34,358 bases of DNA from Hymenobacter sp. (lineage in GTDB: Bacteria > Bacteroidota > Bacteroidia > Cytophagales > Hymenobacteraceae): assembly GCA_025353905.1 (NCBI GenBank), contig JANXNW010000185.1:1-34358 (forward strand), in the 5' to 3' direction. The notes beneath the pieces are model-generated. The model was not told where the DNA came from, did not search any database, and saw only the letters and a list, made by a program, of their open reading frames with translations. This document shows, one piece after another, positions 1,899-27,600 of this stretch. A program made the translations under genes and the position numbers. Position 1 is the stretch's first letter. Each line of letters begins with the position of its first letter.

Positions 1899-2061
1899 GC
1901 TTTGTTTTGTCCAGCAACGTCAGTTCCATGCTTGAAAGTCGCGCGCAATCGAGTGGTTAAGCTCTGCCATAGCGGGCAGTGGCGGGGTAGCTGGTCAAGC
2001 GGCAGCAGGCTGGGCTTGCGGCAACATACCGGGTACCGTCCTCAGCAGTTAAAACAGAGAT

Positions 2062-3084
2062 TTACAACCCCAGCTTTTTACCCGCATTGTGCTGCCGCAC
2101 GTTATCCAGGCGGGTGTAGCGCCGAATCATGGCTGAGGTCTTATGCTTGGTCTGATTCATGATTTCCGAGTCGTCGGCCCCGTTGAGCTTGGCCACCGTC
2201 ACGAACGAAGCCCGCAGCGAGTGGGCCGTGTAGCCAGCACCTAAATAGTGCTGGGCAATCAGGTTGATGTGCTTGTCGGTGAGGCGGCGACTGGTGAGCT
2301 GGTTGTTTTTGCGCAGGGACACAAACACGGGTCCGGTCTGCCGGTCAGCGGCGCTCACCCGCAGCCAGGCTTGCAGCGAGCGGATGGGGCACGTAGCCAG
2401 CTCGGGCGAGTAGTAGATGGCTTTCTCGTCGGCCTGCCCGGTCTGGTTGGTTTTGCTCTGGTCGAAGGCGATGATGAGTCCCTCCTCGTCGAAAGTCAAA
2501 TCCTCCACATTGAGCGCGGCTAGCTCCGAGCGGCGAAAGGCCCCGGTGAAGCCCAGCAGCAGCAACGCGCGGTTGCGCAGGCCGGCGGGCGTGGCTACGT
2601 CTATGCTCTTGACCGTGCGCCGGAAGCTGGCCAGCGAGAAGGCCGCCGCCTGCTTGATGCGCGCGCGCTTCTCGCGGGCAATGCCCTTGAGCAGGACCTT
2701 GATTTGCTTGTCGGCCGTGGGCGAGTCCGCGCCCGCCAGCTCGTGGGCTTTGGCGATGGCTGCGGCGTGGCGCTGAATGGTGGCCACCTTCTTGCCGGCC
2801 TCGGCCAGCTCAGTGAGAAAGCCGGCCAGCGTAGCCACCGAAGCCGGCAACGGGGCCAACTCGTGGACCAGGCACCAAGCCGTGAAGCGCCGCCAGTCGC
2901 CGGCGTAGGCCCGAACCGTATTGGCCGCCCCACGCAAACCGGCCTCCACGTAGCGGCTGGCAGGAGCCGTGAGGTGGGCCGGTAAGCTAGTGGTTGAAGC
3001 AGCGGAGACGAGCGAGTCGGTCAAGGCGTTGTTAATCAGTAAAAATGCAGTGAGGGGATGACGAGCAGCACAGGCAAGGTACAA
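2062..3084 (-). CDS. Tyrosine recombinase / site-specific integrase
   Basis: The protein of up to 340 residues has the two-domain layout of phage-type integrases. An N-terminal SAM-like core-binding domain (about 45-130) contains NTVRAYAGDWRRFTAWC. The C-terminal catalytic domain has the first Arg in GAFRRSELAAL, the beta-hairpin Lys in SKTNQ, HSLRASF for the HxxR box, a KHKT segment for the second His position and RRYTR with the nucleophilic Tyr near the C-terminus. All catalytic residues appear present, so it may be active. The reading frame as given opens with TTG at 3084 inside a poor context; a second TTG at 3024 (before TDSLVSAAS) is an alternative, so the true start is uncertain. It lies between the broken end of the CRISPR array and a plasmid rep remnant, which fits an integrated plasmid or element. 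It could also act in plasmid dimer resolution. Confidence 0.85.
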   Translation of the reverse strand: MYLACAARHPLTAFLLINNALTDSLVSAASTTSLPAHLTAPASRYVEAGLRGAANTVRAYAGDWRRFTAWCLVHELAPLPASVATLAGFLTELAEAGKKVATIQRHAAAIAKAHELAGADSPTADKQIKVLLKGIAREKRARIKQAAAFSLASFRRTVKSIDVATPAGLRNRALLLLGFTGAFRRSELAALNVEDLTFDEEGLIIAFDQSKTNQTGQADEKAIYYSPELATCPIRSLQAWLRVSAADRQTGPVFVSLRKNNQLTSRRLTDKHINLIAQHYLGAGYTAHSLRASFVTVAKLNGADDSEIMNQTKHKTSAMIRRYTRLDNVRQHNAGKKLGL

Positions 3085-3125
3085 GCGGGCGGCTTTCCGA
3101 GAGATGCTTCAGAGGGTGCCCTTTA

Positions 3126-3479
3126 CTTATCGTAAACATCAACTACGAGCTGATTAAGAAGGGTCGCTCGTTTGAGGACATTCGCTTTCGCATCAAGCCC
3201 CAGGAACCGCATCAACTGCCGTTGCCCTTCGAGCAGGGTGTGGACGATGCCCGGCTGCCGGCGGCCCGGCAGCGCCTGGCGGAACTGGAAATCCGCAACC
3301 TACAGCTCTTGGAGCAGCTACTCGGTGAGGCGGGCAGGGTGGACGAGCTGTTCAAGTTTTGCTACAACCTTAAAACCGGTAAGACAAGAGCTGTCACTAA
3401 TCCCGGTGGGCTACCTCTGACGGTAGTAGGACTGCGCGAGGCGAAGGTCAAGCGGAAGGCAGCAGGCAAAAGTAGGTAA
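3126..3479 (+). pseudogene. C-terminal remnant of Rep_3-type plasmid replication initiator
   Basis: An open frame starts abruptly about 40 bases beyond the 5' end of the divergent integrase. It reads INYELIKKGRSFEDIRFRI, which resembles the end of the second winged-helix domain in RepB/Rep_3 initiators, where the order NYELIKKGR then a strand of the type IxFxI is typical. An acidic/Leu-rich tail follows (RLAELEIRNLQLLEQLLGE). Roughly the first two thirds of a normal initiator are missing and no convincing start codon lies upstream; the first ATG in frame (3222) comes after the recognisable part. I read it as a deletion remnant of a plasmid rep gene. A short functional protein from 3222 cannot be excluded. 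Confidence 0.6.
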
Positions 3480-3513
3480 CGTGGGGACCTGCGTCCGGTC
3501 GTGAGCCGCGTCT

Positions 3514-4980
3514 TCACCACGCCACTTCTTCCCGGCCCTCCTCGAAGGCGTTGCTGGCGCTGAGTTGCCCTTTTAGGTCGGCGTAAGAGGTGGCCTTTAG
3601 CGCCGCCGTAAATGCCTGGGCGCGGTCGAGCATGCGCAGGTAGAGGCCGGGGTCGCGCTGGCGGCTGAGGCGGCGCAGGGCGCGCAGGTAGTCCTGGCGG
3701 TAGTGGGTGGTGATAATGATGCGGCTCAGGCCCCCGCGCACCAGCTCGGCGTTCATCATGATGCGAGCCAGGCGGCCGTTGCCGTCGTCGAAGGGATGCA
3801 CTTCACTGACGATGAACAGCAGCATCATCGCGCGGGCCAGCGGATGCTCCAGGGCGTGGTACAGGTTAAATCCCTGGTGCAGGGTGCCGCGCACCAGCTC
3901 GGGTTCCACGAAGCTGGTATTGCCGGCCTGGTTGGCGCGCTCTTTCCACTGGCCGGGTCGCTTATCAGGCCGCTCGCCTAGGAGCGTGGCGTGACGGCGT
4001 TGCAGCAGGGCCAGCAACTCCGTGGCCGTGGCCGGTACCAAACTCATCTCAGCCGGGTTGCTGACCAGGTGGTAGGTACTGAGCACGTCGTGGGAGTCGG
4101 CGTGGCGGCCGGGCACGGGCTGGTTGCCGGTTACCATGGCGTGCGCCTCGTCCACCTCGAAGACGGTGCCCTCAATGAAGTTAGAGAAGTAAGCCTCAAA
4201 AAAAGCCAGGTTGTAATAGCCCGGTGGCTGGGGGGCCTGGTCGGGACGGTTGGGCCAGGTGGTGTGGCGTAAAGCCGTGAGCAGGGTGCCAAATAAGGCC
4301 ACTCGGTCGGGGTCGTAGGGTAAGCCCAGGGCGCGGGCTTGGGCCACGGGCGAGGTGAGCAGCTTGCTCGGGGCGGTGGCCAGCAGGGCGGCCACAAGCT
4401 GGTTAAGCCGGGCCAGCTCCGCCGCCCACCCCAGCGTGTCGGCCAGCGCCCTGGCTTTGTCGCGCAACTCGTTCAGCCCTTCTTCGCCGCGCACTCGTAG
4501 CACCCGTTCCAGAAATTCCTCCACCTCAGTCAAGAGCAGGGTTTTGCTGCTGCCGCTACGGGTGCGGGCGGGCTGTAGATTTTCGAGTACGGCCCGCGCT
4601 TCGGAGGCGAAGTAGAGGGGAATCTCCCCAAATGGCCGGTCGTCGGGCTGGGGGCCGGGGCCGGGCAGCAAATGCACGGTCAAACCCGGCAGGGCCACTT
4701 TTTTGCCGTACTTGTAGGTAAGAAAAATGTCGCCCGCCGACGTGGGCTGCGCGTCGAGGCCGGAACGGTGGCTGATGATAGCCTGGGGGTAAAGGTGGCC
4801 CAGCAGCTGGAACCAGTGTCGGCGTACCAGGTCGGCCGGGGGCGTGGTCAGGTCGGAGGTATGTACACGAGGTAGGAGCTCCCGCAACTGTCCCGCTTGG
4901 CGGGCCCGCTGAATTTGCCGGCTCACCCGTTGGTCAGCAGTGGCGAATACGAGCACAGGCCAGACACCATTTTTTTCCAT
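3514..4980 (-). CDS. Fic domain protein, class II (self-inhibited AMP transferase-like)
   Basis: This 488-residue protein carries the canonical Fic loop HPFDDGNGRLAR at residues 395-406, with the catalytic His and the phosphate-binding GNGR intact, so NMP (usually AMP) transfer to a hydroxyl side chain is expected. Upstream in the protein SNFIEG (266-271) fits the [S/T]xxxE[G/N] inhibitory helix, placing it in class II, where the inhibitor is part of the same chain; this agrees with the absence of a separate fic antitoxin gene. The first about 130 residues (with YPQAIISHRSGLD at 64-76) resemble the winged-helix/AbiEi-like N-terminal regions found in some toxin-antitoxin proteins, which is a weaker call. 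It is a single-gene unit starting at ATG 4980. The target protein cannot be inferred. Confidence 0.88.
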   Translation of the reverse strand: MEKNGVWPVLVFATADQRVSRQIQRARQAGQLRELLPRVHTSDLTTPPADLVRRHWFQLLGHLYPQAIISHRSGLDAQPTSAGDIFLTYKYGKKVALPGLTVHLLPGPGPQPDDRPFGEIPLYFASEARAVLENLQPARTRSGSSKTLLLTEVEEFLERVLRVRGEEGLNELRDKARALADTLGWAAELARLNQLVAALLATAPSKLLTSPVAQARALGLPYDPDRVALFGTLLTALRHTTWPNRPDQAPQPPGYYNLAFFEAYFSNFIEGTVFEVDEAHAMVTGNQPVPGRHADSHDVLSTYHLVSNPAEMSLVPATATELLALLQRRHATLLGERPDKRPGQWKERANQAGNTSFVEPELVRGTLHQGFNLYHALEHPLARAMMLLFIVSEVHPFDDGNGRLARIMMNAELVRGGLSRIIITTHYRQDYLRALRRLSRQRDPGLYLRMLDRAQAFTAALKATSYADLKGQLSASNAFEEGREEVAW

Positions 4981-5079
4981 TAGGGCGAAGGTAAGGCCCG
5001 TAATAGGCTAAAATTTTCCAATAAGGACGCGATAAGCGATAAAACTTTTGAATAATTTCGCATAACGTCCTGCCGTGCG

Positions 5080-5667
5080 CTAATGCGAACGACCTGGCCA
5101 GAGCCCGTCGAGCTGCCGGCGGGCGTTAAGCAGCAAGGTCAGTTCGCGGTTGCCGGTAAGCAGTAGCCGGGCGGCGGGTTGGTAGCCCCGCTCCCCGGTG
5201 ATGGGCAAAAAAGCATCTGCTGATGCCAGCGACGCTTTTAGGGCGTGGAAGAGGCTGGTGTATAGTGGGCTCCGGTTCGCTTCTTGGTGGGACCGGGCCA
5301 GCGGCAGCAAGAGCGGGTTTACCGTCAGCAGCTTGTGTTTCTTGAAGTAAGGCAGCGTTTGTTGCAGCAGTGCTCCCAGTTCCTGCATCAGGGCGTGGTT
5401 GACCGGCAGCTCGGGCTTCAGGTTTTTGCGTGAGGGGGTCGTGACGAACGGCGCGTGAACCAGAAAGTCCAAGGAAGTTTGGTGGGCTGTCTCAAAAAAA
5501 ACGAAGGCAAGACATTCTCGGCCGCCACCAACCGCACCGGGCCTTCCTGCTCGGCCAGCCGAAACGCGAGGGCTACGTACTGCGGGGGGCGCAGCCGATG
5601 GAAGTCGGGGTACTGCACCAGGTCCTGAAACACCAGATAGCGAAGCGGGGCCACTGGGTGGCCGTGG
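5080..5667 (-). pseudogene. Sacsin-like GHKL ATPase gene fragment A (frameshifted)
   Basis: This fragment encodes the piece after the ATPase domain of the same kind of protein as the copy at 7295-8328. It reads from HPVAPLRYLVFQDLVQYP through LDFLVHAPFVTTPSRKNLKPELPVNHALMQELG and continues about 75 residues beyond the point where the other copy stops, ending at 5080. One base is missing around 5508-5517 compared with the other copy (GGCAAGACATTC against GGCAAAATCACTC), which breaks the frame after LVAAE. The N-terminal ATPase domain is absent: homology stops at 5667, where a hipB-like remnant on the other strand begins. It cannot make a normal product. Confidence 0.8.
5324..5667. repeat. Direct repeat, left copy (about 95% identical to 7311-7655)
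   Basis: The 344 bases from GTCAGCAG to GTGGCCGTGG match 7311-7655 in the same orientation with roughly 17 differences and a one-base indel (counted by eye). Both copies are coding fragments of the GHKL ATPase gene. They bracket 5668-7310, which holds toxin-antitoxin genes. Confidence 0.9.
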
Positions 5668-5894
5668 TCAAACCGCACTGCTGCTTTCGTGCGGTACCGC
5701 CGCAAAGTCTTCAACCTGACTCAACCCGAGTTGGCCGCGAAAGCCGGAACAGGCTTGCGTTTCGTGCGCGAGCTGGAAGCCGTAAAGCCACCTTGCGACT
5801 CGCTAAAGTGAATCAAGCGCTGGCCTTGTTCGGATACGAGCTGGTGCCCGCGCCGCAGACTCGCCCGGCGGATGAGGAAGTCAGCACCCGATGA
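5668..5894 (+). pseudogene. HipB-like XRE antitoxin remnant (frameshifted)
   Basis: Two frames together give AAFVRYRRKVFNLTQPELAA and KAGTGLRFVRELEA, then after one missing base KATLRLAKVNQALALFGYEL. This is the helix-turn-helix fold of HipB-type antitoxins, which commonly read ..LTQPELAEKAGVGLRFVRELE.GK.TLRLDKVNQVL.LFGYEL. The frame breaks at about 5787-5790, where GAAGCCGTAAAG lacks a G relative to an expected GAAGCCGGTAAAG. The N-terminal start has been lost at the junction with the GHKL fragment. The stop overlaps the next ATG as ATGA, the spacing typical of hipB-hipA. Confidence 0.7.
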
Positions 5895-5947
5895 GATGCG
5901 CAGGAACCTGTACGTACGGACAACTGGCCAGGGAGCTACTCGGATAA
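5891..5947 (+). pseudogene. Possible start of a lost hipA gene
   Basis: The ATG at 5891 overlaps the hipB stop and opens an 18-codon frame ending CTYGQLARELLG followed by a stop. This resembles the first strand-turn of the HipA N-terminal domain (VYVNGQLAGEL). Nothing recognisable as HipA follows; 5948-6120 holds no gene that I can see. The similarity is short and the call is inference. Confidence 0.35.
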
Positions 5948-6122
5948 CCTCAGACTTCTCTGGACTTCGCCTAAATGTAAAACCCGCGCCTGGTAGGACC
6001 TTATTACTGTCTTATCGGGCGGGGCGTGGTGCGTTCGGACGACGCAGGGAACGGCTAGATTCGCTTAGCCTGGGGTAGTCTAAAATTGACGAGCCACATA
6101 GGTGAAGGAGTTTCTAGGAATC

Positions 6123-6157
6123 TTTGTTTCGTTTGTTTCGTTTGTAAGTTTGCAAAC
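6123..6157 (+). promoter_or_regulatory. Promoter and operator-like palindrome of the HTH-PIN module
   Basis: TTTG at 6123-6126 and TAAGTTTG at 6145-6152 (full match to the Bacteroidota TAnnTTTG box) are separated by 18 bases. A perfect 10-bp palindrome GTTTGCAAAC (6148-6157) overlaps the -7 box, and TTTGTTTCG occurs twice in tandem just before it. Such overlap suggests autoregulation by the antitoxin, which starts at 6174. Confidence 0.55.
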
Positions 6158-6173
6158 GATAATCAGCAAAACC

Positions 6174-6629
6174 ATGGAAGCCACTCTTGAGAAACCATCC
6201 CAGCAGGACCAGCAGGTCGCCAGGGCTTCGCTGGACAGCTTCGCCCGCGCGTTTACGAAAAATGGCCCCGCACGCAACGGGGTTAAAATTCGTCTTCAGG
6301 AAAGCGAGACCGACATCACCATTCCGCGCAAGGCGCTGGAATTGTTGCAGTTTATTTTGGTGAGCATGGCGCAGGGTAAAGCCATCTCGTTGATTCCCTC
6401 CGATTCGGAGGTAACCACCCAGCAAGGAGCCGATATGTTAAATGTTTCCCGGCCCCATCTGGTCAAGTTGCTGGAGCAGGGAGCACTGCCGTTCAAGAAA
6501 GTAGGCAGCCACCGCCGAATTATGCTGGAGGACTTGCTGGCTTACGAGGCAAAAAAATCGAAATTGCGGCAAGACCAACTGCAACTGCTCGCCGAGCAGG
6601 CGCAGGAGCTACAGCTGGGCTACGAATGA
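6174..6629 (+). CDS. Excisionase-type HTH antitoxin
   Basis: From the ATG at 6174 the protein has 151 residues. An in-frame start further upstream (6102) would place the promoter inside the gene, so 6174 is preferred. The C-terminal half reads VTTQQGADMLNVSRPHLVKL followed by LEQGALPFKKVGSHRRI and LEDLLAYE, the MerR/excisionase-type helix-turn-helix (HTH_17). The N-terminal half (IRLQESETDITIPRKALELL) resembles a small strand-helix dimerisation segment. The stop overlaps the ATG of the PIN gene in ATGA, so the two are translationally coupled. HTH-excisionase antitoxins next to PIN toxins are a known toxin-antitoxin arrangement. The protein is intact although its partner is not. Confidence 0.8.
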   Translation: MEATLEKPSQQDQQVARASLDSFARAFTKNGPARNGVKIRLQESETDITIPRKALELLQFILVSMAQGKAISLIPSDSEVTTQQGADMLNVSRPHLVKLLEQGALPFKKVGSHRRIMLEDLLAYEAKKSKLRQDQLQLLAEQAQELQLGYE

Positions 6630-7212
6630 TTCACTCGCCCCGGTTTATTGCCGTCCTCGATGCCTGCGTCCTTTATCCCGTTCCCATGCGGGACTTGCTG
6701 CTGAGCCTGGCGGCAGCCGGGTTATATAAGCCCAAATGGTCAGCCCTGATTCAGGACGAATGGACCCGCAATCTGCTGGCTAATCGTAGCGATATTACCG
6801 CAGAGCAGTTGCGGCGAACCACGACGATGATGAATACGGCGTTCGACGACGCGAACGTGGAAGGGTATGAGACCTTCATTCCAGCCTTGGCCTGCCCGAC
6901 CCCGACGACCGACACGTGCTGGCGGCCGCTTTGCGGTCCCAGGCCAATGTCATCGTGACCACGAACCTCAAGGATTTCCCCGCGCCATATATCCGCACCT
7001 TTGATATGGAGGTGCAGCACCCGGACGACTTTATTTGTAACCTGCTGGACCTGAATCCAGCTGAGGCACTAGATGCCTTTCGGCAACAAGTAGCCCGGCT
7101 GAAAAATCCACCCCTTGCAGCTGCTCAGGTGTTGGATGCTTTACGAAGGTCCAGCTTGCCCGCTTCGGCGGCCCGCTTAGAGGCGTTGATGCAGTTAGGA
7201 TTTACGGGGTAA
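6626..7212 (+). pseudogene. PIN-domain toxin (frameshifted)
   Basis: The first frame (6626-6958) has the PIN start FIAVLDACVLYP, with the first catalytic Asp, then SALIQDEWTRNL. Around 6886-6892 the frame changes: the correct continuation LPDPDDRHVLAAALRSQANV, with the paired acidic residues of the PIN active site, and then IVTTNLKDFP, lies in the next frame, which runs to 7212. One base appears to be missing, so the full-length RNase of about 195 residues is not made unless the ribosome shifts. I see no obvious slippery heptamer, so a decayed toxin is likelier than programmed shifting. The retained antitoxin fits loss of the toxin. Confidence 0.8.
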
Positions 7213-7245
7213 CTCACCAAACAGTAAATGATGGGCGTTGGTGAG
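7213..7245 (+). terminator. Hairpin after the PIN gene (weak terminator candidate)
   Basis: CTCACCAA (7213-7220) pairs with TTGGTGAG (7238-7245), starting right after the PIN stop. There is a 17-base loop and only a short T-containing tail (GTTTAG), so termination is uncertain. Confidence 0.35.
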
Positions 7246-7294
7246 GTTTAGTCGGATTTTGACCTTACAGCTACGCCAGTTCTTTGGTCAAACC

Positions 7295-8328
7295 TTAAAG
7301 ACGGCTTATGGTCAGCAGCGTGTGTTTCTTGAAGTAAGGCAGCGTTTGTTGCAGCAGTGCTCCCAGTTCCTGCACCAGGGCGTGGTTGACCGGCAGCTCG
7401 GGCTTCAGGTTTTTGCGTGAGGGGGTCGTGACGAACGGCGCGTGAACCAGAAAGTCCAGGGAAGTTTGGTGGGCTGTCTCGAAAAAAACGAAGGCAAAAT
7501 CACTCTCGGCCGCCACCAACCGCACCGGGCCTTCCTGCTCGGCCAGCCGAAACGCGAGGGCTACGTACTGCGGGGGGCGCAGCCGCCGGAATTCGGGGTG
7601 CTGCGCCGCAGCTTGAAACATCAGGTAGCGAAGCGGGGCCACTGGGTGGCCGTGGGTTTCCTCATTCAGTGTCTGAATGGTAGGGGCAGCACGGTCGTTA
7701 TTTGGCTGCGCGTGCTTAGTCAGCAGCCGCTGCTTGTTCTCCCCCTGCAACCGCAATTCCCGAAGGTTGCGCAGGAACAGCAGGTTAAACGCTTCCAAGG
7801 TTTGCAGTTTGGCTTCGATGGCCAAATAGGTGCTTTGCACAGCATCCGCGTCGCCCGTGAATGGAAGCGTGATGGTCGTTTCCTCGTAGGCCGCATTCAC
7901 GGCGAGCAGGACGGGCACGATATACGCTTCCATTTCAAAATCGAACGGGCCGGATTGGATGCGGGGCCGCTGGGTGACCTTGAACACGGACTTGGAGCCG
8001 ATGCCAAAGCGGCCAATCTTGTCCTGGTCCGCTTTCTTTTCGTTGTCGGTCTTGCTGATGCCCGCGATGGCATCCATGTCGTGCGGGGTGAACGCCCGGC
8101 CGTTGTGGCGAACGACCAGCTCCGTGGGCCGCAGGTGCAGTATCATCGAGGTAGCGTCGGCATCCTCAGCATTCTGAAGCAACTCGTAAATGAAGTGCGC
8201 CTTCTCGGCGTACAAATCCGCTAAGACGGTAGAAAGGTCTGATTGCCTCTTGCGCAGGGCATCGCGCAGCTCCTGGCAGTCAGCAACTAATTGGTCAAGA
8301 TTTACTTCCGGCAGAGGGAGGTTTTCTT
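7295..8328 (-). pseudogene. Sacsin-like GHKL ATPase, N-terminal part (truncated at both ends)
   Basis: The frame reads LDQLVADCQELRDALRKRQ, then DLYAEKAHFIYELLQNAEDA with the Bergerat N-box (E, N, D), AIAGISKTDNEKK for G1 and KIGRFGIGSKSVFKV for G2. This is the ATP-binding domain of sacsin/HATPase-like proteins, several of which belong to bacterial defence islands. Coding starts right after a TAA near 8329 with no ATG; the only start-like codon is a TTG at 8215, which would cut into the N-box helix. The protein ends at 7295 (ISRL) soon after the shared repeat, whereas members of this family are usually much longer. Both ends look lost, so I call it a pseudogene; expression of a short ATPase fragment is possible. 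Confidence 0.7.
7311..7655. repeat. Direct repeat, right copy (about 95% identical to 5324-5667)
   Basis: This is the partner of the left copy, in the same orientation. It lies inside the longer GHKL ATPase fragment and keeps the frame open. Homology starts at GTCAGCAG and ends at GTGGCCGTGG. Confidence 0.9.
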
Positions 8329-8406: not shown

Positions 8407-9393
8407 CTACGCCAGCGTGGCCAAGCGTTGCCCAATAGTTGCCAGGGTCTGCCCCACGGCTGTGGCAGCTGGTAAAGGGCCGTGTACCAACTGCCGGAAT
8501 AAGCCCTGGTAAGTGGGTGTCAGCCGCCGCCAGAGGTAGCTTCCATCGGTGAATAGCGCCGCTTCGCCCAGCGGCCGAGCTGCCCAGTCGCCTTGAAACT
8601 CTTGGTTGCGGGCATCGTCGGCGCGCGCTTCGGCCAGCAGTTCCGCGAAGCCCGCGCTGCCCAGGAAAGTCCGTAGCTCAGGCCGTTGCAGCAGTTGATG
8701 TAAGTCGTAAGTGTGGCGGATTTTGGCTTGCAGCTCGGCTAGCGGGTCGGGCGCGTAGCCGGCCCGCACCAGGGCCAGGATTTTCTCTATTATCGTGCGC
8801 TCCAGCGCCAGCGTTAGCACCTCGAACGCGGCTAGGCCGTACTCGGCCACGGCAGCGAGTTGGCTCCGCTCGGTGAGCACCTGGCCGATGTAGGACTGCA
8901 CCGACCGCAGGTGGCTGGGGTAGGGGCGGGCGAAGGCGTTGATTTCGAGCAACACGGCCCCGGCGCGGAGCTGGGGCAGCAGCGCGGCCGGGTCGTGGGC
9001 GGTAGGGAAGCGGTGAGCCGTTTTGCGAAAGTGGCTGCCGCGCACGGTGCCGACCGCGGCAGGGTCCGCGTCGAGGCCCTGCGTGATGCGGCGGGCGGCC
9101 TCGTCCATGAGCTTTTTAACCTGGTTGTTCGTCCAGCCTTCGGTGCCGGCGATGGCCAGGTCCACATCTTCGGAAAACCGCTCAATCAGGCCGTAGGCTT
9201 TGGAAAGCGCCGTGCCGCCCTTGAACACTACTCGGTCGCGGTAGGGCGAGTCGGCCAGCGCCCGCAGCACGTAGCACACCCAGTAGTCTTTCTCAACCAA
9301 CACGGCTGCCAGGCCCAGTTGCTGGGCGGTGACGGCCACCGCCGCGGCGAAGGTGGCCGGGTCTCCTAGGTGCAAAATCATTGGATGTTCCAT
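8407..9393 (-). CDS. abiEii: AbiEii/AbiGii-family nucleotidyltransferase toxin
   Basis: The 328-residue protein has the nucleotidyltransferase signature of AbiEii toxins: VEKDYWVCYVLRAL (33-46), FKGGTALSKAYGL (57-69) and RFSEDVDLAI (72-81), where the GG and DxD residues form the active site. C-terminal helices with the segment RTIIEKILALV fit the family. AbiE toxins halt growth of phage-infected cells by transferring nucleotides, shown for relatives to act on tRNA. The gene follows its antitoxin with overlap: the ATG at 9393 overlaps by 16 bases, while a second ATG at 9381 gives an ATGA overlap, and either start is plausible. The reading frame is intact. Confidence 0.88.
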   Translation of the reverse strand: MEHPMILHLGDPATFAAAVAVTAQQLGLAAVLVEKDYWVCYVLRALADSPYRDRVVFKGGTALSKAYGLIERFSEDVDLAIAGTEGWTNNQVKKLMDEAARRITQGLDADPAAVGTVRGSHFRKTAHRFPTAHDPAALLPQLRAGAVLLEINAFARPYPSHLRSVQSYIGQVLTERSQLAAVAEYGLAAFEVLTLALERTIIEKILALVRAGYAPDPLAELQAKIRHTYDLHQLLQRPELRTFLGSAGFAELLAEARADDARNQEFQGDWAARPLGEAALFTDGSYLWRRLTPTYQGLFRQLVHGPLPAATAVGQTLATIGQRLATLA

Positions 9394-10100
9394 GCGGCGC
9401 GGTTGGGCAGGGCCTCGGTGCTGAGGCCGAGGCGGTAGATAGTGAGCGGATTGAGCGTGGCGCGCAGCTGCGCCGCGCCGGCGGCATCGGGCAGGGGTTC
9501 GAGCAGCGCCCCCAGCAGGGCGCGGGCGCGGGGCGGTGCCTGGCGGGCGGCTAGCGCCGTAAGGCGGCGGCGGGCGGCGGCCGGCAGCCGCCGCAACTTC
9601 TCAGCAACGCGGGCCACTACCCGGTCGGGCGTGGTGTCGGGGATGCGGCGTACGTCGGCCAGCACGTCGAGCCATTGCAGCAGCGGCACGTCGCTGGCTT
9701 GCTCGGGCGCGGGGCGCACTACGGCCCGCAGCCGGGCCGGCAGCCGCCGGCGCGGGCGCGTGGTGGCCACGGTGAGGGTGGCCGGCACCTGCGTGGTCAG
9801 GCCGAGCGCGTTGTACACGGCCAGGCCGGTGAGGTAGGGGGCCGGCTGGCCGGGTGCCGCGCCCACGGCACTTACTACGGCAGCCTGAGTGGGCGGCACG
9901 GGCCCGAAGCGGCCCACGGCCGGGCGGTAGTAACGGCCCTTGGCCAGGCGCACCAGTTCGCCAGTCCGGCTTAACCGGCTCAACGCCGCGGCCACCGCCC
10001 CGAACTCGGCCGGCTCGCGCACGAAGTCAGCGTAGCCCACGGGCTGGCCCGGTGGCAGCTGTTCGAGCTTGGCGCGAATACGTTGGGCAGTGCTGGGCAC
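9378..10100 (-). CDS. abiEi: AbiEi-like antitoxin (DUF6088 family)
   Basis: The frame is open from 10154, but that start is a TTG inside an operator-like palindrome. The GTG at 10100 is preferred, giving 240 residues starting VPSTAQRIRAKLEQLPPGQP, which matches the usual N-terminus of this family. Residues 5-75 form a winged helix (YADFVREPAEFGAVAAALSR, then GELVRLAKGRYYRP). The C-terminal part is rich in Arg and Ala, with a core PYLTGLAVYNALGLTTQVP that is typical of AbiEi-like proteins. It should bind its own promoter and counteract the adjoining nucleotidyltransferase. Arg-rich, very high GC coding sequence sets it apart from the AT-rich bases just upstream. Confidence 0.85.
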   Translation of the reverse strand: MPSTAQRIRAKLEQLPPGQPVGYADFVREPAEFGAVAAALSRLSRTGELVRLAKGRYYRPAVGRFGPVPPTQAAVVSAVGAAPGQPAPYLTGLAVYNALGLTTQVPATLTVATTRPRRRLPARLRAVVRPAPEQASDVPLLQWLDVLADVRRIPDTTPDRVVARVAEKLRRLPAAARRRLTALAARQAPPRARALLGALLEPLPDAAGAAQLRATLNPLTIYRLGLSTEALPNRAAWNIQ

Positions 10101-10149
10101 GGGGAGTAGCAGTTTAGGGCAGCAAAGTAACAACCTAACGCGAAAAAAC

Positions 10150-10177
10150 GTCAAGTTTTTACCTGTAAAAACTTGAC
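10150..10177 (-). promoter_or_regulatory. Perfect 28-bp palindrome, operator of the abiE-like operon
   Basis: GTCAAGTTTTTAC (10150-10162) and GTAAAAACTTGAC (10165-10177) are perfect inverted repeats with a 2-base spacer. On the minus strand the TTG of the downstream arm lies 21 bases before TTACTTTG (7 of 8 matches to TAnnTTTG, 10132-10125), and that box lies about 25 bases before the GTG start. The palindrome thus covers the likely -33 box and is a strong candidate for antitoxin binding. Confidence 0.7.
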
Positions 10178-12208: not shown

Positions 12209-14770
12209 TCAATAATGGAACGTAAGGCCTGCGCCCCAGCCGTACTGGTTGTCGTAATTGGTACTGAGCGAGGCGTATTTGCGGACCATGTAGCGAAAGC
12301 CGATGGTGAATTCCTTGTCGGTGTTGGCCCGAATGTCCATGAACACGTTGCTGCTCAGGGGCAGGTCGCGGCGCTCCAGCTGTGCCCGTACCTGGCCGGT
12401 GAGGTCGGTGCGCAGCTCGGCCCGGAACAGCAGAGGTAACAGGTAATAGACCCCGACTTCGGCTTGCCGGCGGAAGTTGATGTTGTTTTCCGGGGTTCGG
12501 CGGTTCCCTCCCTCGGTGTCCGACGCGGAGCGCAGCGTTTTATTGTCGCGGAAGTCGTAGCCGACGAAACCCGCCAGAAACTGCCGCTTATCGAGGTAGC
12601 GCAGCAGGTGGGTTTCGGTTTCGTAGTTGCCGACGTAATTGACCCGGCCTTCAAATTCCAGCGCATTTTTGTTGTTGGAAAGGTTGGCCTCCAGGTAAGT
12701 GGCCTGAGAATGCACCGCCAGGTCGAACCAGGGATAGAGTTGGTTGTCCTCCTTTTTGAGCTTTCTGTAATCGGTCTTGGCAAACTCATTCTGCGGGCTG
12801 CCTTCGTAGCTGATGACGCGGGCCATGCCCGACATCATGTGGTAGAGGGTGTGGCAGTGAAAAAACCAGTCCTGCTCATCGTTGGCATCGAATTCAATGG
12901 TCACAGTGCTCATCGAGGGGATGTCAAACGTGTGCTTCATGGGCGAGTAGGCCCCCTGGGAATTGATGAGCCGGAAGAAGTGCCCGTGCAGGTGCAGCGG
13001 GTGGCGCATCATGGTGGTGTTGGTGAAAATCATGCGCACGTTCTCGCCCTTGCGGATGGGAATGTTGTCGGACTCGGATAAGGTTTTGTTGTCGAACGAC
13101 CAGATGTAGCGCAGCATGTTGCCGGTCAGCGTGAGCTTGATTTCGCGCCATTGCTTAGTGGAATCCAGCGTGGTAGGGTGCAGGGCGCGCAGCATGTTGT
13201 AGGTGAAGTCGCCGCCTCCACTCATTCCTCCCATGCCGGACATGCCACCCATCCCGCTCATGCCCGCCATGCCGTCCTTGCCCTTATCCTGGAGGCTGCC
13301 CATGCCCATGTCGCCCTTCTCCTGCATATTCATCGGTCGGTCTGGCGGGGCTGGGGCGGTGGCGGCGGGCATGGTACCGTTTTGCATATTCATGCCCGGC
13401 ATGTCCTGGCCGCCCGGCGTAGCCTTTCCCTTGGCCGCCTGGCCATCTTTTTTGCCCTTGCCGGGCATGGGCTGGCCGCCCTTCTCATCCATTCCTTTCA
13501 TTTCCTGGCCGCCTTTCATGTCCATGCCCTTCATATCCTGACTGCCGGGCATACTCTGGCCACCGGGGCCATCCATTTTCATCTGGCCCGCGCCGCCCAT
13601 GCTCATGCCGGTCATGTTGCCCATGCTGCCCATCTCGCGCATCATCTGGAAGTAGTTGAGCTTGGGCAAGTCGGGGGCTTTCATGGGCTCGCCGCTGCCG
13701 AAAAAGCCGGAGGTGTAGCCGGTGATGTCGGAAGACGTGGCGCGCAGCTCGGCCGCGCCCATCTGGGGGACGGTAACGAGCACATCGTAGGTCTCAGCGG
13801 TGGCAATTTCAAGCTTGGTGACCGGAAAGGGCTGCACGTTGATGCCGTCGGCCGCAATCACCTGCATCGGGCCCCCGGCGTATTGCAGCTGGAAGTAGGA
13901 CGAGGCACCGCCGTTGATGATGCGTAGCCGCACTACTTCGCCGGGCTTCGCATCCTTGAAATAGTTCTTTTCCTGCCCGTTCATCAGGAACTTGTTGTAG
14001 AAGATGTCGGTGACATCCATCGCCGGCATCCGGCCCCATTCCTGCTTCACCTTGTCCTTGAAATAGCCGGCGGCGAGGGCCTCGCCGTAGCTTTGGGTGG
14101 CCCCTTTCTGCACCGCGTACCACTCGCCGGCTTTTTTGAGGTAGCGCAGCACCTGCCGGGGATTCTCGTCAATCCAGTCGGAGAGCACCAGCACGTACTC
14201 CTTCATCTCGTACTTGATTTCCCTGGGCTGGATGACAATGGAGCCGTAGAGGCCGGACTGCTCTTGCAGCATGGTATGCGAGTGGTACCAGTAGGTGCCG
14301 CTCTGCCGCAAGGGAAACGTGAAGGTGTGGGTGCCGCTGGCCTCGACCGGGGCCGTGGTCAGGTAAGGCACGCCGTCGTATTGGTTGGGCACCAGCAGCC
14401 CGTGCCAGTGGATGGAGGTTTCCATCTTCATCTGGTTGTGCACGTGAATGACGGCCGTATCCCCCTCAGTAAAGCGCAGCGTGGGGGCCGGAATCTGGCC
14501 GTTGATGCCGATGGCGTGGCGCGTTTTGCCGGTGTAATTAACGAGGCGGTCGTCCACGTAGAGGTCGTACACGACCTTCTTGCCCAAGTAGCCGCCGCGG
14601 GGGCTGACGGTGGTGCCCTGCACGGCTTTGGCATCCGGGGCCGACTGCGTTAGATAAGGCTCTTTCGGTTCCTTAGCTGCTTTATCCCCCGGCATACTCA
14701 TGCCGGACATGCTTTGCGCCGCCACCTGCCAGGTAGTCAGCAGGCAGGCTATTACTGGAAATAATCTCAT
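12209..14770 (-). CDS. Multicopper oxidase (CopA-like) with Met-rich insert and CopB-like C-terminus
   Basis: The 853-residue protein starts with a signal peptide (MRLFPVIACLLTTWQVAAQ). Cupredoxin copper ligands are complete: SIHWHG (119-124), YWYHSHT (160-166), HPLHLHG (590-596) and HCHTLYHMM (638-646), so trinuclear and type 1 copper sites should form. Between them residues about 376-521 are a Met/Gly/Lys-rich insert with repeats such as MKGMDM and MSGMGGM, expected to bind Cu(I). After the oxidase (about 665-853) comes a segment with alternating strands (ALEFEGRVNYVGNYETE, FLAGFVGYDFRDN, EFTIGFRYMVRK) ending in an aromatic residue (LTFHY), like the CopB outer-membrane barrel. The product would oxidise periplasmic Cu(I). 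It lies 22 bases downstream of the DUF2231 gene and is probably cotranscribed. Usual CopA proteins have about 600 residues, so the C-terminal addition is notable. Confidence 0.9.
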   Translation of the reverse strand: MRLFPVIACLLTTWQVAAQSMSGMSMPGDKAAKEPKEPYLTQSAPDAKAVQGTTVSPRGGYLGKKVVYDLYVDDRLVNYTGKTRHAIGINGQIPAPTLRFTEGDTAVIHVHNQMKMETSIHWHGLLVPNQYDGVPYLTTAPVEASGTHTFTFPLRQSGTYWYHSHTMLQEQSGLYGSIVIQPREIKYEMKEYVLVLSDWIDENPRQVLRYLKKAGEWYAVQKGATQSYGEALAAGYFKDKVKQEWGRMPAMDVTDIFYNKFLMNGQEKNYFKDAKPGEVVRLRIINGGASSYFQLQYAGGPMQVIAADGINVQPFPVTKLEIATAETYDVLVTVPQMGAAELRATSSDITGYTSGFFGSGEPMKAPDLPKLNYFQMMREMGSMGNMTGMSMGGAGQMKMDGPGGQSMPGSQDMKGMDMKGGQEMKGMDEKGGQPMPGKGKKDGQAAKGKATPGGQDMPGMNMQNGTMPAATAPAPPDRPMNMQEKGDMGMGSLQDKGKDGMAGMSGMGGMSGMGGMSGGGDFTYNMLRALHPTTLDSTKQWREIKLTLTGNMLRYIWSFDNKTLSESDNIPIRKGENVRMIFTNTTMMRHPLHLHGHFFRLINSQGAYSPMKHTFDIPSMSTVTIEFDANDEQDWFFHCHTLYHMMSGMARVISYEGSPQNEFAKTDYRKLKKEDNQLYPWFDLAVHSQATYLEANLSNNKNALEFEGRVNYVGNYETETHLLRYLDKRQFLAGFVGYDFRDNKTLRSASDTEGGNRRTPENNINFRRQAEVGVYYLLPLLFRAELRTDLTGQVRAQLERRDLPLSSNVFMDIRANTDKEFTIGFRYMVRKYASLSTNYDNQYGWGAGLTFHY

Positions 14771-14792
14771 TAATGCTTAGTTATCTGACTGC

Positions 14793-15950
14793 TTAATTAT
14801 CTTTCTTAGGGTTCTTGCGGGCCGGGTTGTTATCCTCGAAGCGGTATTTATCCAGGGGATTGGGCATGGCCTGGCCCTTTTCCATCCCGGGCATACCTTT
14901 CATAGCGCCCATGTCCGAGATGGCCGGTGGCTGGTCCTTGCCCGCGTCGTTCTTCATGCCGGGCATGTTGCCCATGCCTTCCATGCCGGACATGCCTTTC
15001 ATGGGGGGCTGCTTTTTGGCACCGGCCGGCTGCTTTCTCATCTCTTTGTTCATATCCATTCCCGGCATGGCCGGCATGTTCTGCTTATTGCGCTGGCCCG
15101 ACGGGGCTTTCATCTCCATGCCCTCCATCTTCCTGCCTTTCATGTCCATGCCTTTGGGCATTTGTTTCTTCGTTCTCATGCCCGGCATGTCGGCCATAGA
15201 GCTTTGGTCCTGAGCTGGCTTTTTGTTGCCTGGAGCAGGTTTCTCCGACATGTCCATGTTGCCCATCCCGGACATTGATTTGTCGCGCTGACTCTGGCCG
15301 TTAGCCGGTTGGGGGGCGGCGTTACCGCTCCTTTCCGTGCCTTCCATATCGTTCATTCCCGACGGGGATTCTCTGCCGGCCGCGCTATCAGCAGCCGGCA
15401 TTCTGCCTTCGTCTCCTGCTTTCTTATTGCCTTTCGAGGTGCCCATGTCCATGCCCGCCATTCCGGCCATACCCGCCTTTTCCTCCCGGGCTTCCTCCTC
15501 TTCGCTCATGACCATGTTGCCCTTCGGGCCGACACCTTCCACGTACACCAGCTGGGCCCCGTGGTGCCCGGCCCAGGAAACGGCCCCTGCTGCGGCCAGC
15601 GCCGGCAGGAGCACCAAGACCGCGTAGGAGCGCTGCCGAACTTGAAAGTATTCGCCCACGCCGGCCAGTAGTAGCGTGATGCCGGCCAGCCAAAGGGTGT
15701 AGCCCGCGTACTGCTCGTGAACAGCGAAGATGGCGGCTGCTTTGGGGGGCAGGCCCCGGGGCATGGCGTGAAAAGTAGTGCTGGCGGCTATTCCGCCCGC
15801 GAAGCCGCCGGCCATCGCCACTAAGGCAATCCAGCGCACTTGCTGCCAGTCCTTGACCACCAACACGGCCTGCAAGGCGGCGGCTACGAGCAGCAGCACG
15901 ACGGGGAAGTGCACGACCAGGGCGTGCAGATTGGGAAAATCCGAAAACAT
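14793..15950 (-). CDS. DUF2231-type membrane protein with long Met-rich tail
   Basis: Residues 1-145 match the DUF2231 layout: NLHALVVHFPVVLLLVAAAL at the start and four hydrophobic helices (about 10-30, 40-58, 85-100, 108-126), with GHHGAQLVYVEGVG after the last. Histidines H9, H14, H61, H78, H129 and H130 could bind heme or metal. Residues about 146-385 are low complexity, with around 39 Met in 240 positions (MAGMAGMDM, MSGMGNMDM, MPAMPGMDM, MKGMSGMEGM), a Cu(I)/Ag(I)-binding type of composition also seen in the insert of the adjoining multicopper oxidase. The pair is likely one operon and may pass copper between them, which is inference. DUF2231 has no established enzymatic role. Confidence 0.8.
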   Translation of the reverse strand: MFSDFPNLHALVVHFPVVLLLVAAALQAVLVVKDWQQVRWIALVAMAGGFAGGIAASTTFHAMPRGLPPKAAAIFAVHEQYAGYTLWLAGITLLLAGVGEYFQVRQRSYAVLVLLPALAAAGAVSWAGHHGAQLVYVEGVGPKGNMVMSEEEEAREEKAGMAGMAGMDMGTSKGNKKAGDEGRMPAADSAAGRESPSGMNDMEGTERSGNAAPQPANGQSQRDKSMSGMGNMDMSEKPAPGNKKPAQDQSSMADMPGMRTKKQMPKGMDMKGRKMEGMEMKAPSGQRNKQNMPAMPGMDMNKEMRKQPAGAKKQPPMKGMSGMEGMGNMPGMKNDAGKDQPPAISDMGAMKGMPGMEKGQAMPNPLDKYRFEDNNPARKNPKKDN

Positions 15951-16232: not shown

Positions 16233-16442
16233 TTACGCGGCCTGAATCTCAAAACCGGCTTTTTGGACGGCGGCCATCACCTGTTCATTCGTGAGTTGGT
16301 CCGAGGTAACGGTCAGAATCTTATTGGGGTTGGCCGTGTCGACCTGCCAGTTGCCGGCCCCGGCTTCCTGGTTGAGGGTGGGCGTAACGGCCTTGATGCA
16401 GCCGCCGCAATTGATGTTGGTTTTGAACTGGAGGGTCTTCAT
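16233..16442 (-). CDS. HMA-domain metallochaperone (CopZ-like)
   Basis: From the ATG at 16442 the protein has 69 residues, which is the size of a single ferredoxin-like HMA domain. An in-frame extension to 16481 adds only unrelated residues. The metal loop reads NCGGC (11-15), the CxxC that binds Cu(I) or other soft metals, followed by the usual helix (IKAVTPTLN) and the strand-helix end (DQLTNEQVMAAVQKAGF). Cytosolic chaperones of this kind deliver copper to exporters. No CxxC-type copper P-ATPase is in the window, so the partner is unknown. It has its own terminator at 16182-16206. Confidence 0.92.
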   Translation of the reverse strand: MKTLQFKTNINCGGCIKAVTPTLNQEAGAGNWQVDTANPNKILTVTSDQLTNEQVMAAVQKAGFEIQAA

Positions 16443-16545
16443 GATGGGTGGATGGTTAGTGAAGCCGCGGGGGGCGGCCACACACTACTAACACGCGAAG
16501 CCGGGACCAAGTGCGGCAAACCCGGCACAGCATTGCGCCCAGAAC

Positions 16546-16637: not shown

Positions 16638-16979
16638 TTAGGCAGCCATGCTCAGGCCCTGGCGGCAAGCAGCTTCGCAACGGCGGCAGGCTTCAGCGCA
16701 TTCGCGGCAGTGCTCCATGTGGGCGGCGTGCTTTTCGCACTCGTCGCCGCAGGCTTTGCAGATTTCGGCGCACTCCTTGAGCAAGTGCGCAGCGTGCTCG
16801 GAGCCACGAGCCACGAAACGGACCGTAATAGCGCAGATGTCGGCGCAGTCGCGGTCGAGCTGAATACAGCGGGCCATCATTTTTACGTCCTGCTCGCTGA
16901 GGCAGGCGGTGGCGCAATGCTCACACGAGGCGAGGCAGGCGTTGAGGGCATCGAGCAGTTGTTGGTTCTGGGCGTGCAT
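16638..16979 (-). CDS. Four-helix-bundle copper storage protein (Csp-like, DUF326)
   Basis: The 113-residue protein carries 16 cysteines, mostly spaced CxxC or CxxxC along helices: C15, C19, C22, C26, then C38, C45, C49, C70, C74, C77, C81 and C91, C94, C98, C101, C105. This is the pattern of Csp/YhjQ-type ferredoxin-like proteins, in which the cysteines line the inside of a four-helix bundle and store many Cu(I) ions. There is no signal peptide, so it should be cytosolic (Csp3-like). Placement just before the HMA chaperone gene (195-base gap) suggests a joint copper-handling role. Confidence 0.9.
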   Translation of the reverse strand: MHAQNQQLLDALNACLASCEHCATACLSEQDVKMMARCIQLDRDCADICAITVRFVARGSEHAAHLLKECAEICKACGDECEKHAAHMEHCRECAEACRRCEAACRQGLSMAA

Positions 16980-24663: not shown

Positions 24664-24683
24664 CCCCGGCTTACTCGCCGGGG
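24664..24683 (-). terminator. GC-rich hairpin over the stop of the RND-OMF gene
   Basis: CCCCGGC (24664-24670) and GCCGGGG (24677-24683) form a 7-bp stem whose loop contains the stop codon. On the minus strand a T-rich stretch (CCTTTTTCTTTC) follows after about ten bases. It may cause partial termination or mRNA stabilisation between the pump and the adaptor. Confidence 0.35.
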
Positions 24684-27600
24684 CTCAGCAGGTAGTCCAG
24701 CTCGATGACGGTTTGGTTGTGTTGCAGCAGTGCGTCGAGGTAGTCGGTGCGCAGGCGCAGGGCGCGGTCCAGGCTGAGCAGGTACTCAGTGTAGCCGTTC
24801 TCGCCGGCCTGGAAGGCTTTGGTGGCCACGCGGGTGATGACGGCCGCTTGCGGCAGGCCGGTCTGCTCGTAAAACAGCAGGCGCTGCTGCTGCTCGGCGC
24901 GTTGCGTCAGCAGCTCGTCCACCCGGCCGGCCAGCTCGGCCTGGTAGCGCGTGAGGCCTGTTTGGGCCACTTTCTCCTGCAAGCGAGCGGCCTGCACTCG
25001 CGCCCGCTGCGGCCCTGGAATTAGGGGCACCGCCACCGTGGCCTGCACGCCTTGGAACCGGTCGGTGCCGGAGTAGACGCGGGTGATGCCGTCCACCACT
25101 TGCGGGCCGATTATTGACTGGTTGAAGTAGCCCACGTTCAGCCCCGGCTTGCCCTGCGCTTGGGTCACGTGGGTTTCGGCCCGCGCCACGGCCACCTGCT
25201 GCCGCAGCACCTGCGCGAGGAGGCTGCGCCCCAATAGCGCCGTATCCCCCGCCACTACGGTGGTCTTCGGCTCCAAAGGGACCAGCGTGCTATCGACCAC
25301 TGTTACCGGCTGCGCGGTTTGTAGCAGGGCTTGTAGCTGCCGCTCTGCTACCCGCTGCTCGGTGCGGGCCTGTGCCAGGCGCACGCGGATTTCGCCCTGC
25401 TGCACCAGCGCCGTGGCCACTTCCAGCCGGGCGGTTTCGCCGGTGCGGAAGCGCAGCTGCGCGGCCCGCACGAACGCCGTGTACAGACTGTCCTGCGCCC
25501 GCAGGGTGCGCAGGCGGTGCCGGGCGTGCACGGCAGCTTCGTACTGCAACCGAACCTGCCGGCGCACGTCGGCGCGGGCCAGGCCCAACTGCTGCGCCTT
25601 GGTGGCCACCTGCGCCTTGGCCAGGGCCGAGAGGGTTCTGTAGTAGCCTGGCCAGGCCAGCGGCTGCGTAACCGTAAACAAATTGTCCCGGTGAATGGAG
25701 TTGTACTGCCCGTAGCTGCCTTGCACGGTGGTGCGTCCGAAATCGCGGGCGGCCCGCACCGCAGCCTGCTGCGTTTCGAGCTGCTGCTGCGCCCCGAGCA
25801 CGGTGCCGCTTTGCGTCAGCGCGGCGCTGACGGCCTGGTCGGCCGTGAAGAACCCACCGCCCGGGGCATCTACTTTTTGGGCGCGGGCCACGCCGGGCAG
25901 CAGGGCCAGCCCCAGCCCGAGCAACAGCAGCCCAACCACCGGCAAGCCGGCCGCTGGCTTGCCGGCCGCCACGGCTTCGCCCTTTTTGGCGGCCCGCCGG
26001 GCCGTCCAGGTTTCTTCCAGGTAGTAGAGCACCGGCAGCACCAGCAGCGTGAGCAGCGTGGCCGTCACCAATCCGCCGATGACGACGGTGGCCAACGGCT
26101 TCTGTACCTCACCGCCGGCGGAGCCCGACAAGGCCATCGGCAAGAAGCCCAGCGAGGCCACGGTGGCCGTCATCAGCACCGGCCGCAGGCGGATGTGGGT
26201 GCCTTCCAGAATGCGGGCCCGTAAATCGGTCATCCCTTCATCCTTGAGTTGATTGAAGTAGCCGATGAGCACGATGCCGTTGAGCACGGCCACGCCGAAC
26301 AAGGCAATGAAGCCCACCCCGGCCGAGAGGCTGAACGGCATCCCGCGCAGCCACAGCGCCAGCACCCCGCCGATGGCCGAGAGCGGAATGGCCGTGAAAA
26401 TCATCACCGTCTGCGCAATGGAATTAAACGTGGCGTAGAGCAGCAAAAAGATGAGCAGCAAGGCCACGGGCACCGCAATCAATAGCCGGTCGCGGGCCGA
26501 TTGCAGGTTCTCGAACTGCCCGCCGTAGGTCACGTAGTAGCCCGGCGCGAACTTCAGCCGCCGCTCGATGCGCTGCTGCACTTCCTTCACCAGGCTTTCC
26601 ACGTCGCGCCCCCGCACGTTGAAGCCCACGATGATGCGCCGCTTGGCATCGTCGCGCTGAATTTGGCTCGGGCCGGAAATCAACGCCACCTTCGCCACTT
26701 GTTCCAGCGGCACCTGCCGGCCGTCAGGCGCGGCGATGAAGAGCTGGCGCAGGTTGCTGATGTCCTGGCGGTAGTCCGACTTGAGGCGCACCACCAAATC
26801 AAAGCGGCGCTCCTTTTCAAACACCTGGCCCGCCACCTGGCCGGCAAAAGCCGCTTGCACCGTGCGGTCCACGTCGTCCACCGACAGGCCGTATTGGGCC
26901 AGCTTTTCGCGGTCGAGCTGCGCCACAATCTGCGACTGCCCGGTGGCGCGCTCCACGTACAAATCTGTCGCGCCGGGCAGGCCCTTCACCAACTCGCCCA
27001 CCCGCCCAGCGTAGTCGTCGAGCTGGTCCAGATCTTCCCCGAAAATCTTAATCACCACGTCTTGCTTGGCCCCCGAAATCAGCTCGTTGAACCGCATTTG
27101 AATGGGCTGCTGAAAGCCAAACGTGACACCGGGGATGGTGCTCAGCCGCGCCGACATCTTGTCCACCAGCCCCTCCCGCGTGTCGGCCGATGTCCAGTCC
27201 TTCTTGTCTTTGAGCACGATAATCAGGTCGCAGGCTTCTGTGGGCATGGGGTCGGTGGGAATTTCGGAGGAGCCCACCTTGGCCACTACTTCCTTCACTT
27301 CGGGGAAGTGCTTGAGCAAGAGCCCGGCCGCCTGCTGCGCCTTTTCGGCGGTGTAGGTAATGGACGAGCCGGGCAGCACGCGGGTTTCCACAGCGAAGTC
27401 GCCTTCCTCCAGCGTCGGAATGAACTCGCCGCCCAGCGTGCGGAACAGCAGCACCGCCCCCACGAGTAGCCCCAGCGCCGCCCCGAGAATCAGGGTTTTC
27501 GCGCCCAGCGCCCAGGCCACTACGTTTTGATAGCGCCCGGCCAGCCGGCCAAGTAGCTTGTCCGAGAAGCCATACCGGGCGGTTTGCTTGCTCAACGCCA

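Follow-up and report, generated by a model that had tools for sequence, protein, structure and literature searches.

The closest described counterpart of the locus analysed here is the PcoA/PcoB (CopA/CopB) system, which likewise combines a multicopper oxidase (MCO), a 12-strand outer-membrane barrel, and a membrane protein, encoded in the same operon, that has a disordered Met/His region. In the accessible portion of a report on Caulobacter, the disordered His/Met N-terminal region of PcoB is described as needed both for PcoB function and for the stability of PcoA, which is encoded in the same operon (PMC12509749). At the present locus, in contrast, MCO and barrel form one chain, and the predicted disordered region is C-terminal, longer, based mainly on Met, and carried by a separate protein that appears to be a four-helix protein of the inner membrane; the Bacteroidota chain has its oxidase where PcoB, as described in that portion, has the disordered region. 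An MCO-barrel arrangement of this kind is on record for Bizionia argentinensis, whose MCO has a porin-like C-terminal region with some likeness to PcoB, but the available text of that report names no DUF2231 partner, and the string "DUF" is absent from it (PMC11213822). The PcoE/SilE sponges, so far as the accessible part of the source describes them, are also disordered, contain Met motifs, and belong to copper or silver operons (PMC5008109). They are, however, secreted, soluble periplasmic proteins with His/Met motifs, whereas the protein described here has a membrane domain that would tether its tail, has no His in the tail in the window, and is paired with an MCO. CutF of the Rhodobacter capsulatus CutO/CutF pair offers a further likeness, as a protein encoded beside an MCO with a Met-rich segment and required there for MCO activity; in the available text it differs in being small, with a Sec signal and a CXXXC motif and without a DUF2231 domain (PMC8456105). 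We found no functional paper on DUF2231 (PF09990) in the open-licence literature, none linking DUF2231 proteins with copper, in keeping with the first-pass annotation, which knew of no such description, and none that brought together Hymenobacter, multicopper oxidases and copper. The family turned up there in work on a cysteine database and on membrane protein graphs, and a search for PcoA/PcoB fusions brought mainly unrelated papers.

The window is the whole 34,358-nt stretch of DNA that was analysed, positions 1 to 34,358 of Hymenobacter sp. contig JANXNW010000185.1 (assembly GCA_025353905.1). The features on which the argument turns are as follows.

14793..15950, (-) strand: gene of the DUF2231-Met protein, an open reading frame (ORF) of 385 aa
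15516..15950, (-) strand: DUF2231 core, residues 1-145, with four predicted transmembrane helices (profile match and AlphaFold2)
14796..15515, (-) strand: Met-rich tail, residues 146-385, 38 Met, predicted disordered and periplasmic
14817..14852, (-) strand: conserved C-terminal motif DKYRFEDNNPAR, protein residues 367-378
14771..14792, (-) strand: intergenic gap of 22 nt between the DUF2231-Met gene and the MCO gene
12209..14770, (-) strand: MCO with a C-terminal PcoB-like barrel, 853 aa
13220..13642, (-) strand: Met-rich insert of the MCO, residues 377-517, 29 Met in 141
12212..12808, (-) strand: C-terminal 199 aa of the MCO, predicted to form a barrel of 12 strands; closest in structure to PcoB (7pge)
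16233..16481, (-) strand: small HMA-domain (CopZ-like) protein of the same cluster; Pfam HMA at 21.1 bits, under the cut-off of 24.8
16638..16979, (-) strand: DUF326 four-helix, Csp1-like copper storage protein of the same cluster

Our preferred reading, to which we assign a probability of roughly 0.55, is that the DUF2231-Met protein is anchored in the inner membrane, that its disordered tail forms a Cu(I)-binding arm in the periplasm, and that it is a dedicated partner of the neighbouring oxidase. Its core belongs to DUF2231 both by the curated Pfam profile, which aligns with residues 7-141 at 32.3 bits (cut-off 26.4; E 1.2e-7), and by having a four-helix core with conserved His. An AlphaFold2 model built on 60 aligned sequences places the helices at residues 8-32, 36-59, 69-101, and 107-136, mostly with pLDDT above 90, and His 9, 14, 61, 78, and 129 are invariant across 60 sequences. 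The tail is modelled as a short helix (150-162) followed by low-confidence chain with no secondary structure; mean pLDDT lies between 43 and 52 in ten-residue blocks from 171 to 360 and is about 60 over the last 25 residues, and we read the tail as disordered after residue 162. Comparisons of the core with known structures gave nothing usable: Foldseek returned no match under E 0.12 and the PDB no sequence relative (best E 1). VIA scores reached Z 12.3, mostly against four-helix bundles of many kinds, for which such scores are common, and a likeness to designed two-heme bundles among these matches was left unused. Other Pfam families matched weakly at best (DUF543, E 0.00044, in 5 of 21 members).

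The composition of the tail is highly unusual. With 38 Met in 240 residues (the first-pass annotation had put the figure at about 39) and 41 in the whole 385-aa protein, it stands against a background of 43 in 2687 (1.6%) in nine other ORFs of the window (binomial P about 6e-26). The spacing is equally distinctive: the window tail has 18 M-x-x-M motifs where shuffling predicts 5.8, a number reached in 0 of 1000 shuffles, and no MM where 5.8 are expected. Pooled over the 53 distinct tailed proteins obtained from the surveys described below, the figures become 918 observed against 282 expected for M-x-x-M and 1 against 286 for MM. Conservation was scored on the 435 of 1378 pairs that passed a filter (core identity 80-96%, well aligned), with the last 30 columns excluded; Met was kept at 86% of aligned tail positions, ahead of His (71%), Leu (70%), Gly (64%), Pro (63%), and the rest. 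His numbers 0 in the window tail and 1 to 12 in the others. The motif DNNP is present in 52 of the 53 distinct tails, in 38 of these in the fuller form D-K-[FY]-R-F-x-D-N-N-P-A-R, and the exception (L059) is a frameshifted copy with the motif in another frame.

These patterns bear on two explanations that involve no partner. Low-complexity drift without function would fit a tail that averages 56% identity where the core averages 85%, but a residue with only one codon, as Met is, ought to disappear early from a drifting sequence. Instead Met, its spacing, and the end motif have been selectively kept, and the reading frame is intact as far as DNNP in 52 of 53 proteins; drift was already disfavoured on these grounds and we consider it highly improbable. 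The tail could also be a methionine sulfoxide buffer that soaks up oxidants made by copper at the membrane, as its Met density and predicted disorder and periplasmic location would allow. Pure scavenging explains neither the M-x-x-M spacing nor the avoidance of MM, however, and the partner is a copper oxidase, so that we think this role very unlikely.

The neighbouring protein has three Cu-oxidase domains in Pfam and contains HWH, HSH, HPLHLHGH, and HCHTLYHMMSGM, which we take to be its copper-ligand motifs. Three cupredoxin domains with complete copper motifs are what characterises PcoA, although the score against the PcoA model TIGR01480 (406.4 bits) lies under the curated cut-off of 478.95. 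No Pfam family scores above cut-off in the last 199 residues, where Pfam searched up to E 1 does not report CopB and the best PDB sequence match, at E 0.19, is not meaningful. AlphaFold2 builds this part as 12 strands (mean pLDDT 81.9, pTM 0.74), the outer-membrane barrel architecture of PcoB, and PcoB 7pge is the best Foldseek match (E 2.5e-3, with none under 1e-3; probability 1.00, TM-score 0.48), superposing at Z 15.5 and rmsd 2.7 over 154 residues, with OMPLA next at Z 13.7. Outer-membrane barrels end in an aromatic residue, and the final residue of the MCO is aromatic in 28 of 28 aligned sequences. The match to PcoB and the aromatic end together suggest that the MCO unites PcoA-like and PcoB-like parts in one chain, which presumably has its anchor in the outer membrane.

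We surveyed the pairing of tail and oxidase in two overlapping collections. In a family sample of 200 genomes, 100 had a DUF2231 core match at E up to 0.001, and 45 of the genomes held 47 close places, which match almost the entire core at 63% identity or better, the window included; a decayed copy in G065, represented by two partial core pieces, was left out. A Met-rich tail and an adjoining MCO on the same strand were present at all 47 places. Apart from one fusion, tails measured 142 to 286 residues; the 142-residue one, on an H. qilianensis plasmid (L059), is frameshifted, and at L033, L046, and L050 the MCO ORF is short through a contig end or an interruption. The 30 more distant core matches within fetched stretches of this sample had no Met tail. 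The second collection gave 80 loci out of 188 relatives. All 31 with 53% identity or more had tail and MCO together, in Hymenobacter, Adhaeribacter, Lacibacter, Flavihumibacter, Sediminibacterium, and other genomes labelled Chitinophagaceae, Chitinophagales, or Sphingobacteriales, whereas the 49 under 46% identity had no tail, with at most 18 residues and at most one Met beyond the core. Absence of the tail in homologues at the same locus, which the first-pass annotation had named as the observation that would count against its proposal, was thus looked for, and the tail was there in 47 of 47 and 31 of 31 cases. Tails of the Chitinophagaceae type are shorter and denser (for example, 42 Met in 156 residues). 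In 51 of the 53 distinct loci of both sets the gap between the two genes is -4 to 43 nt; the remaining two are the fusion and, with 260 nt, the frameshifted copy. Plain Bacteroidota DUF2231 proteins have the same membrane core, including the five aligned His, and 22 of the 49 untailed loci have an MCO somewhere in the sequence fetched, which reached at most about 6 kb to either side, but they lack the Met tail and only 3 of 49 have an MCO within 150 nt.

Core profile matches occurred in 139 of 395 genomes of a phylum sample, and among 20 fetched places, many with open frames near 360 aa, no long Met tail was found: 14 had 191-230 extra residues of another kind with 1-9 Met, one was a 941-aa fusion, four had 5-54 residues with 0-1 Met, and the last was G458. 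G458 (L227, G458:C1; core 1504-1944, (-) strand) encodes a DUF2231 protein of 54% identity; its 30-residue tail has 5 Met and lacks DNNP, and the 1.5 kb fetched downstream showed no MCO. It is the one relative found at more than 50% identity without an MCO nearby and an exception to the rule that 53% identity or more goes with tail and MCO. Short tail and absent MCO coincide in it, and the stub may be what is left of a longer tail or the beginning of one. The additional 190-230 or so residues at L208-L221 of the phylum sample look like a separate domain with few Met, and at L089 and L226 the core is part of a long fusion protein (835 and 941 aa) that has C-x-x-C-H motifs and by eye resembles a cytochrome; L089 retains the core His with the exception of H61.

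The reverse search, with the MCO core against the 200-genome family sample at E up to 1e-60, found 50 places with at least 67% identity and 59 with no more than 56%. A tailed DUF2231 partner adjoined 47 of the 50 closest MCOs, while by coordinates none of the 59 distant ones directly followed a tailed DUF2231 gene, the one at G157:C22 lying one gene further. The partner is missing beside three close MCOs (G065, the second copy in G145, and G178), so the partner is not strictly required by the oxidase. Upstream of the MCOs of G145 and G178 lies a Met-rich protein of 117-125 residues with 28-29 Met, secreted by eye (L197 7829-8182 and L198 3487-3864, about 0.9-1.0 kb upstream of the MCO match), which possibly replaces the DUF2231 partner. 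In G065 a decayed DUF2231 fragment is joined to a truncated MCO barrel on another contig (L196 4858-5412). Related MCOs of other Hymenobacteraceae (L080, L082, L084) carry an N-terminal segment resembling a heavy-metal-binding domain (YTCPMHPEV...) and a long Pro/Lys linker, and the segment stands where the DUF2231 partner is absent.

The evolutionary evidence is consistent with inheritance as a unit. In a maximum-likelihood tree of 109 distinct cores, midpoint-rooted and with long branches near the join, the 47 tailed rows fall on one side of a branch with support 100/99, a grouping that 0 of 500 shuffles reproduced. The tailed proteins are one clade. Over 35 of the 53 loci, core distances correlate with those of the MCO N-terminal part at r 0.86, against 0.60 for the HMA and 0.67 for the Csp protein, both of which are short; for the MCO barrel the value (0.68) is no better than for Csp (0.67).

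The Met segments of tail and insert call for a more divided verdict. The first-pass annotation had noted nearly identical motifs in the two, which is borne out: both avoid MM altogether, both have an excess of M-x-x-M (in the insert 12 against 5.8 expected, reached in 1 of 1000 shuffles), and common words include MKGM, MSGM, MPGM, MAGM, and MGNM. Its further step, from matching segments to a shared relay, is not supported as it stands, on two counts. Inserts are equally Met-rich where no tail exists (mean 21.5% Met in 21 MCOs from untailed loci, including one near-duplicate pair, versus 22.7% at tailed loci), and within Hymenobacteraceae the Met density of the tail does not vary with that of the insert (r = -0.11, 41 loci). 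A covariation of r = 0.86-0.87 over 48 loci was set aside, as it stems from the contrast between Chitinophagaceae-type and Hymenobacteraceae loci. An origin of tail and insert from one DNA copy was likewise dropped: the local DNA alignment score of 29 exceeds a codon-shuffled mean of 18.7 (sd 2.6, maximum 26 in 100), but codon shuffling destroys the M-x-x-M order, and the score proves nothing about common origin. What stands of the earlier claim is that the tail belongs with the oxidase, through adjacency at 47 of 47 and 31 of 31 loci, a single clade, and one natural fusion.

That fusion was found in one strain, Hymenobacter sp. UV11, where DUF2231 and MCO share a single 1118-residue frame (L056 and L123 are the same contig, NZ_SRII01000011.1). 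Its order is DUF2231, Met tail with DNNP, MCO, barrel, and by eye the MCO signal peptide is absent. An alignment of the fusion with separate DUF2231 and MCO sequences, which set the DUF2231 rows against the MCO, was left unused. A single frame would put the tail on the same side as the oxidase, that is, in the periplasm. Charge points the same way: mean K+R is 2.06 in loop 1 and 2.85 in loop 3 versus 0.91 in loop 2, 0.19 at the N terminus, and 0.72 at the C terminus, so that by the positive-inside rule both termini of the DUF2231-Met protein should be periplasmic. On the model, the five invariant His would then lie at periplasmic helix ends, beside the start of the tail. The fusion and the conserved DNNP motif could also be expected of an arm that docks or stabilises, anchoring the oxidase near the inner membrane or assisting its secretion or assembly, with Met of little use for delivery. 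The Caulobacter precedent also fits such an arm, as the disordered region of PcoB is needed for PcoA stability while, in the accessible portion of that report, His or Met changes left the PcoA level unlowered (PMC12509749). A mere tether needs neither Met as the most conserved tail residue nor a strongly non-random spacing, and we judge this explanation rather unlikely.

The pair lies among copper and other metal genes. The HMA protein probably starts at the ATG at 16442, and the DUF326 protein scores 50 bits against the NCBIfam Csp1 model, whose cut-off is 100. The window cluster also encodes a ZIP protein, a P-type ATPase, a CDF protein, and two RND pumps; Cd and Zn models outscore the Cu model for the ATPase, and this mixture of transporters suggests that the island probably serves several metals. 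In PLSDB, 13 records have this DUF2231 core, all of them Hymenobacter plasmids of 81 to 306 kb, and three annotated plasmid regions hold a four-helix copper-binding protein, an HMA protein, DUF2231, MCO, and RND efflux genes together. A storage protein in the cluster, the high density of soft ligands, and the precedent of SilE in the available text (PMC5008109) would suit a standalone copper or silver sponge, a tail that stores Cu(I) as PcoE/SilE do and adjoins the oxidase merely through a common resistance operon. Adjacency to one MCO subfamily, co-inheritance, the fusion, and the end motif point to a specific partner instead, and a tail with no His in the window and 1 to 12 elsewhere also speaks against a sponge, which we regard as unlikely.

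Other observations concern the rest of the window. One 1515-aa ORF (24671-29218, (-) strand) holds ACR_tran (RND pump) and OEP domains and is an apparent CusA-CusC-type fusion. A CRISPR-like array at 683-1849 has 16 copies of a 37-nt repeat at 72-78 nt spacing, and inspection by eye of the five ORFs of at least 200 aa listed in 1-8300 recognised no cas gene. An AbiEii-type toxin gene (8407-10154, (-) strand) overlaps an upstream ORF that may be its partner, and a sacsin/HATPase ORF (7295-8215) and a Fic protein (3514-4980) are not far from it.

Collectively, the reading of the tail as the Cu(I) arm of the oxidase draws on the near-strict pairing with the MCO, the kept Met spacing and end motif, the four helices with a structureless tail, the PcoB-like barrel, the single clade, the UV11 fusion, the short tail without DNNP in G458 where no MCO is nearby, the charge pattern, the core-MCO distances (r 0.86), the copper-gene surroundings, and the precedent of the Caulobacter PcoB disordered region that stabilises PcoA. 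Against it stand the three of 50 MCOs without a partner, G458, the lack of Met covariation, inserts that are Met-rich without a partner, barrel distances no better than those of Csp, a fusion in a single strain, and an ATPase that favours Cd/Zn models. In the model we propose, Cu(I) arriving at the outer face of the inner membrane would be bound by the M-x-x-M motifs, and the DUF2231 core would have its His cluster on that face. The DNNP end motif would dock on the oxidase, and the arm would buffer Cu(I) or hand it to the Met-rich insert of the oxidase, which would turn Cu(I) to Cu(II) close to the outer-membrane barrel. Buffering and hand-over alike would fit a tail that serves the oxidase as a Cu(I) arm tethered to the membrane, which is how we think it is best read. 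A bolder version, possible but doubtful in our estimate, is that copper crosses the whole envelope without energy input through a conduit made up of the DUF2231-Met protein and the MCO-barrel protein, with capture of Cu(I) by the His cluster, passage along a flexible Met arm as far as the oxidase in the outer membrane, oxidation there, and release through the barrel of the oxidase itself; if so, UV11 would encode the whole path from inner to outer membrane as a single chain.

If the DUF2231-Met protein is the Cu(I) arm of its oxidase, part of the DUF2231 family would gain a function, and MCO-based copper systems would gain an inner-membrane partner of a kind absent from the open-licence literature searched. 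The single-chain fusion of UV11 makes the idea directly testable. The arrangement would also suggest how an oxidase anchored in the outer membrane meets the Cu(I) that leaves the inner membrane.
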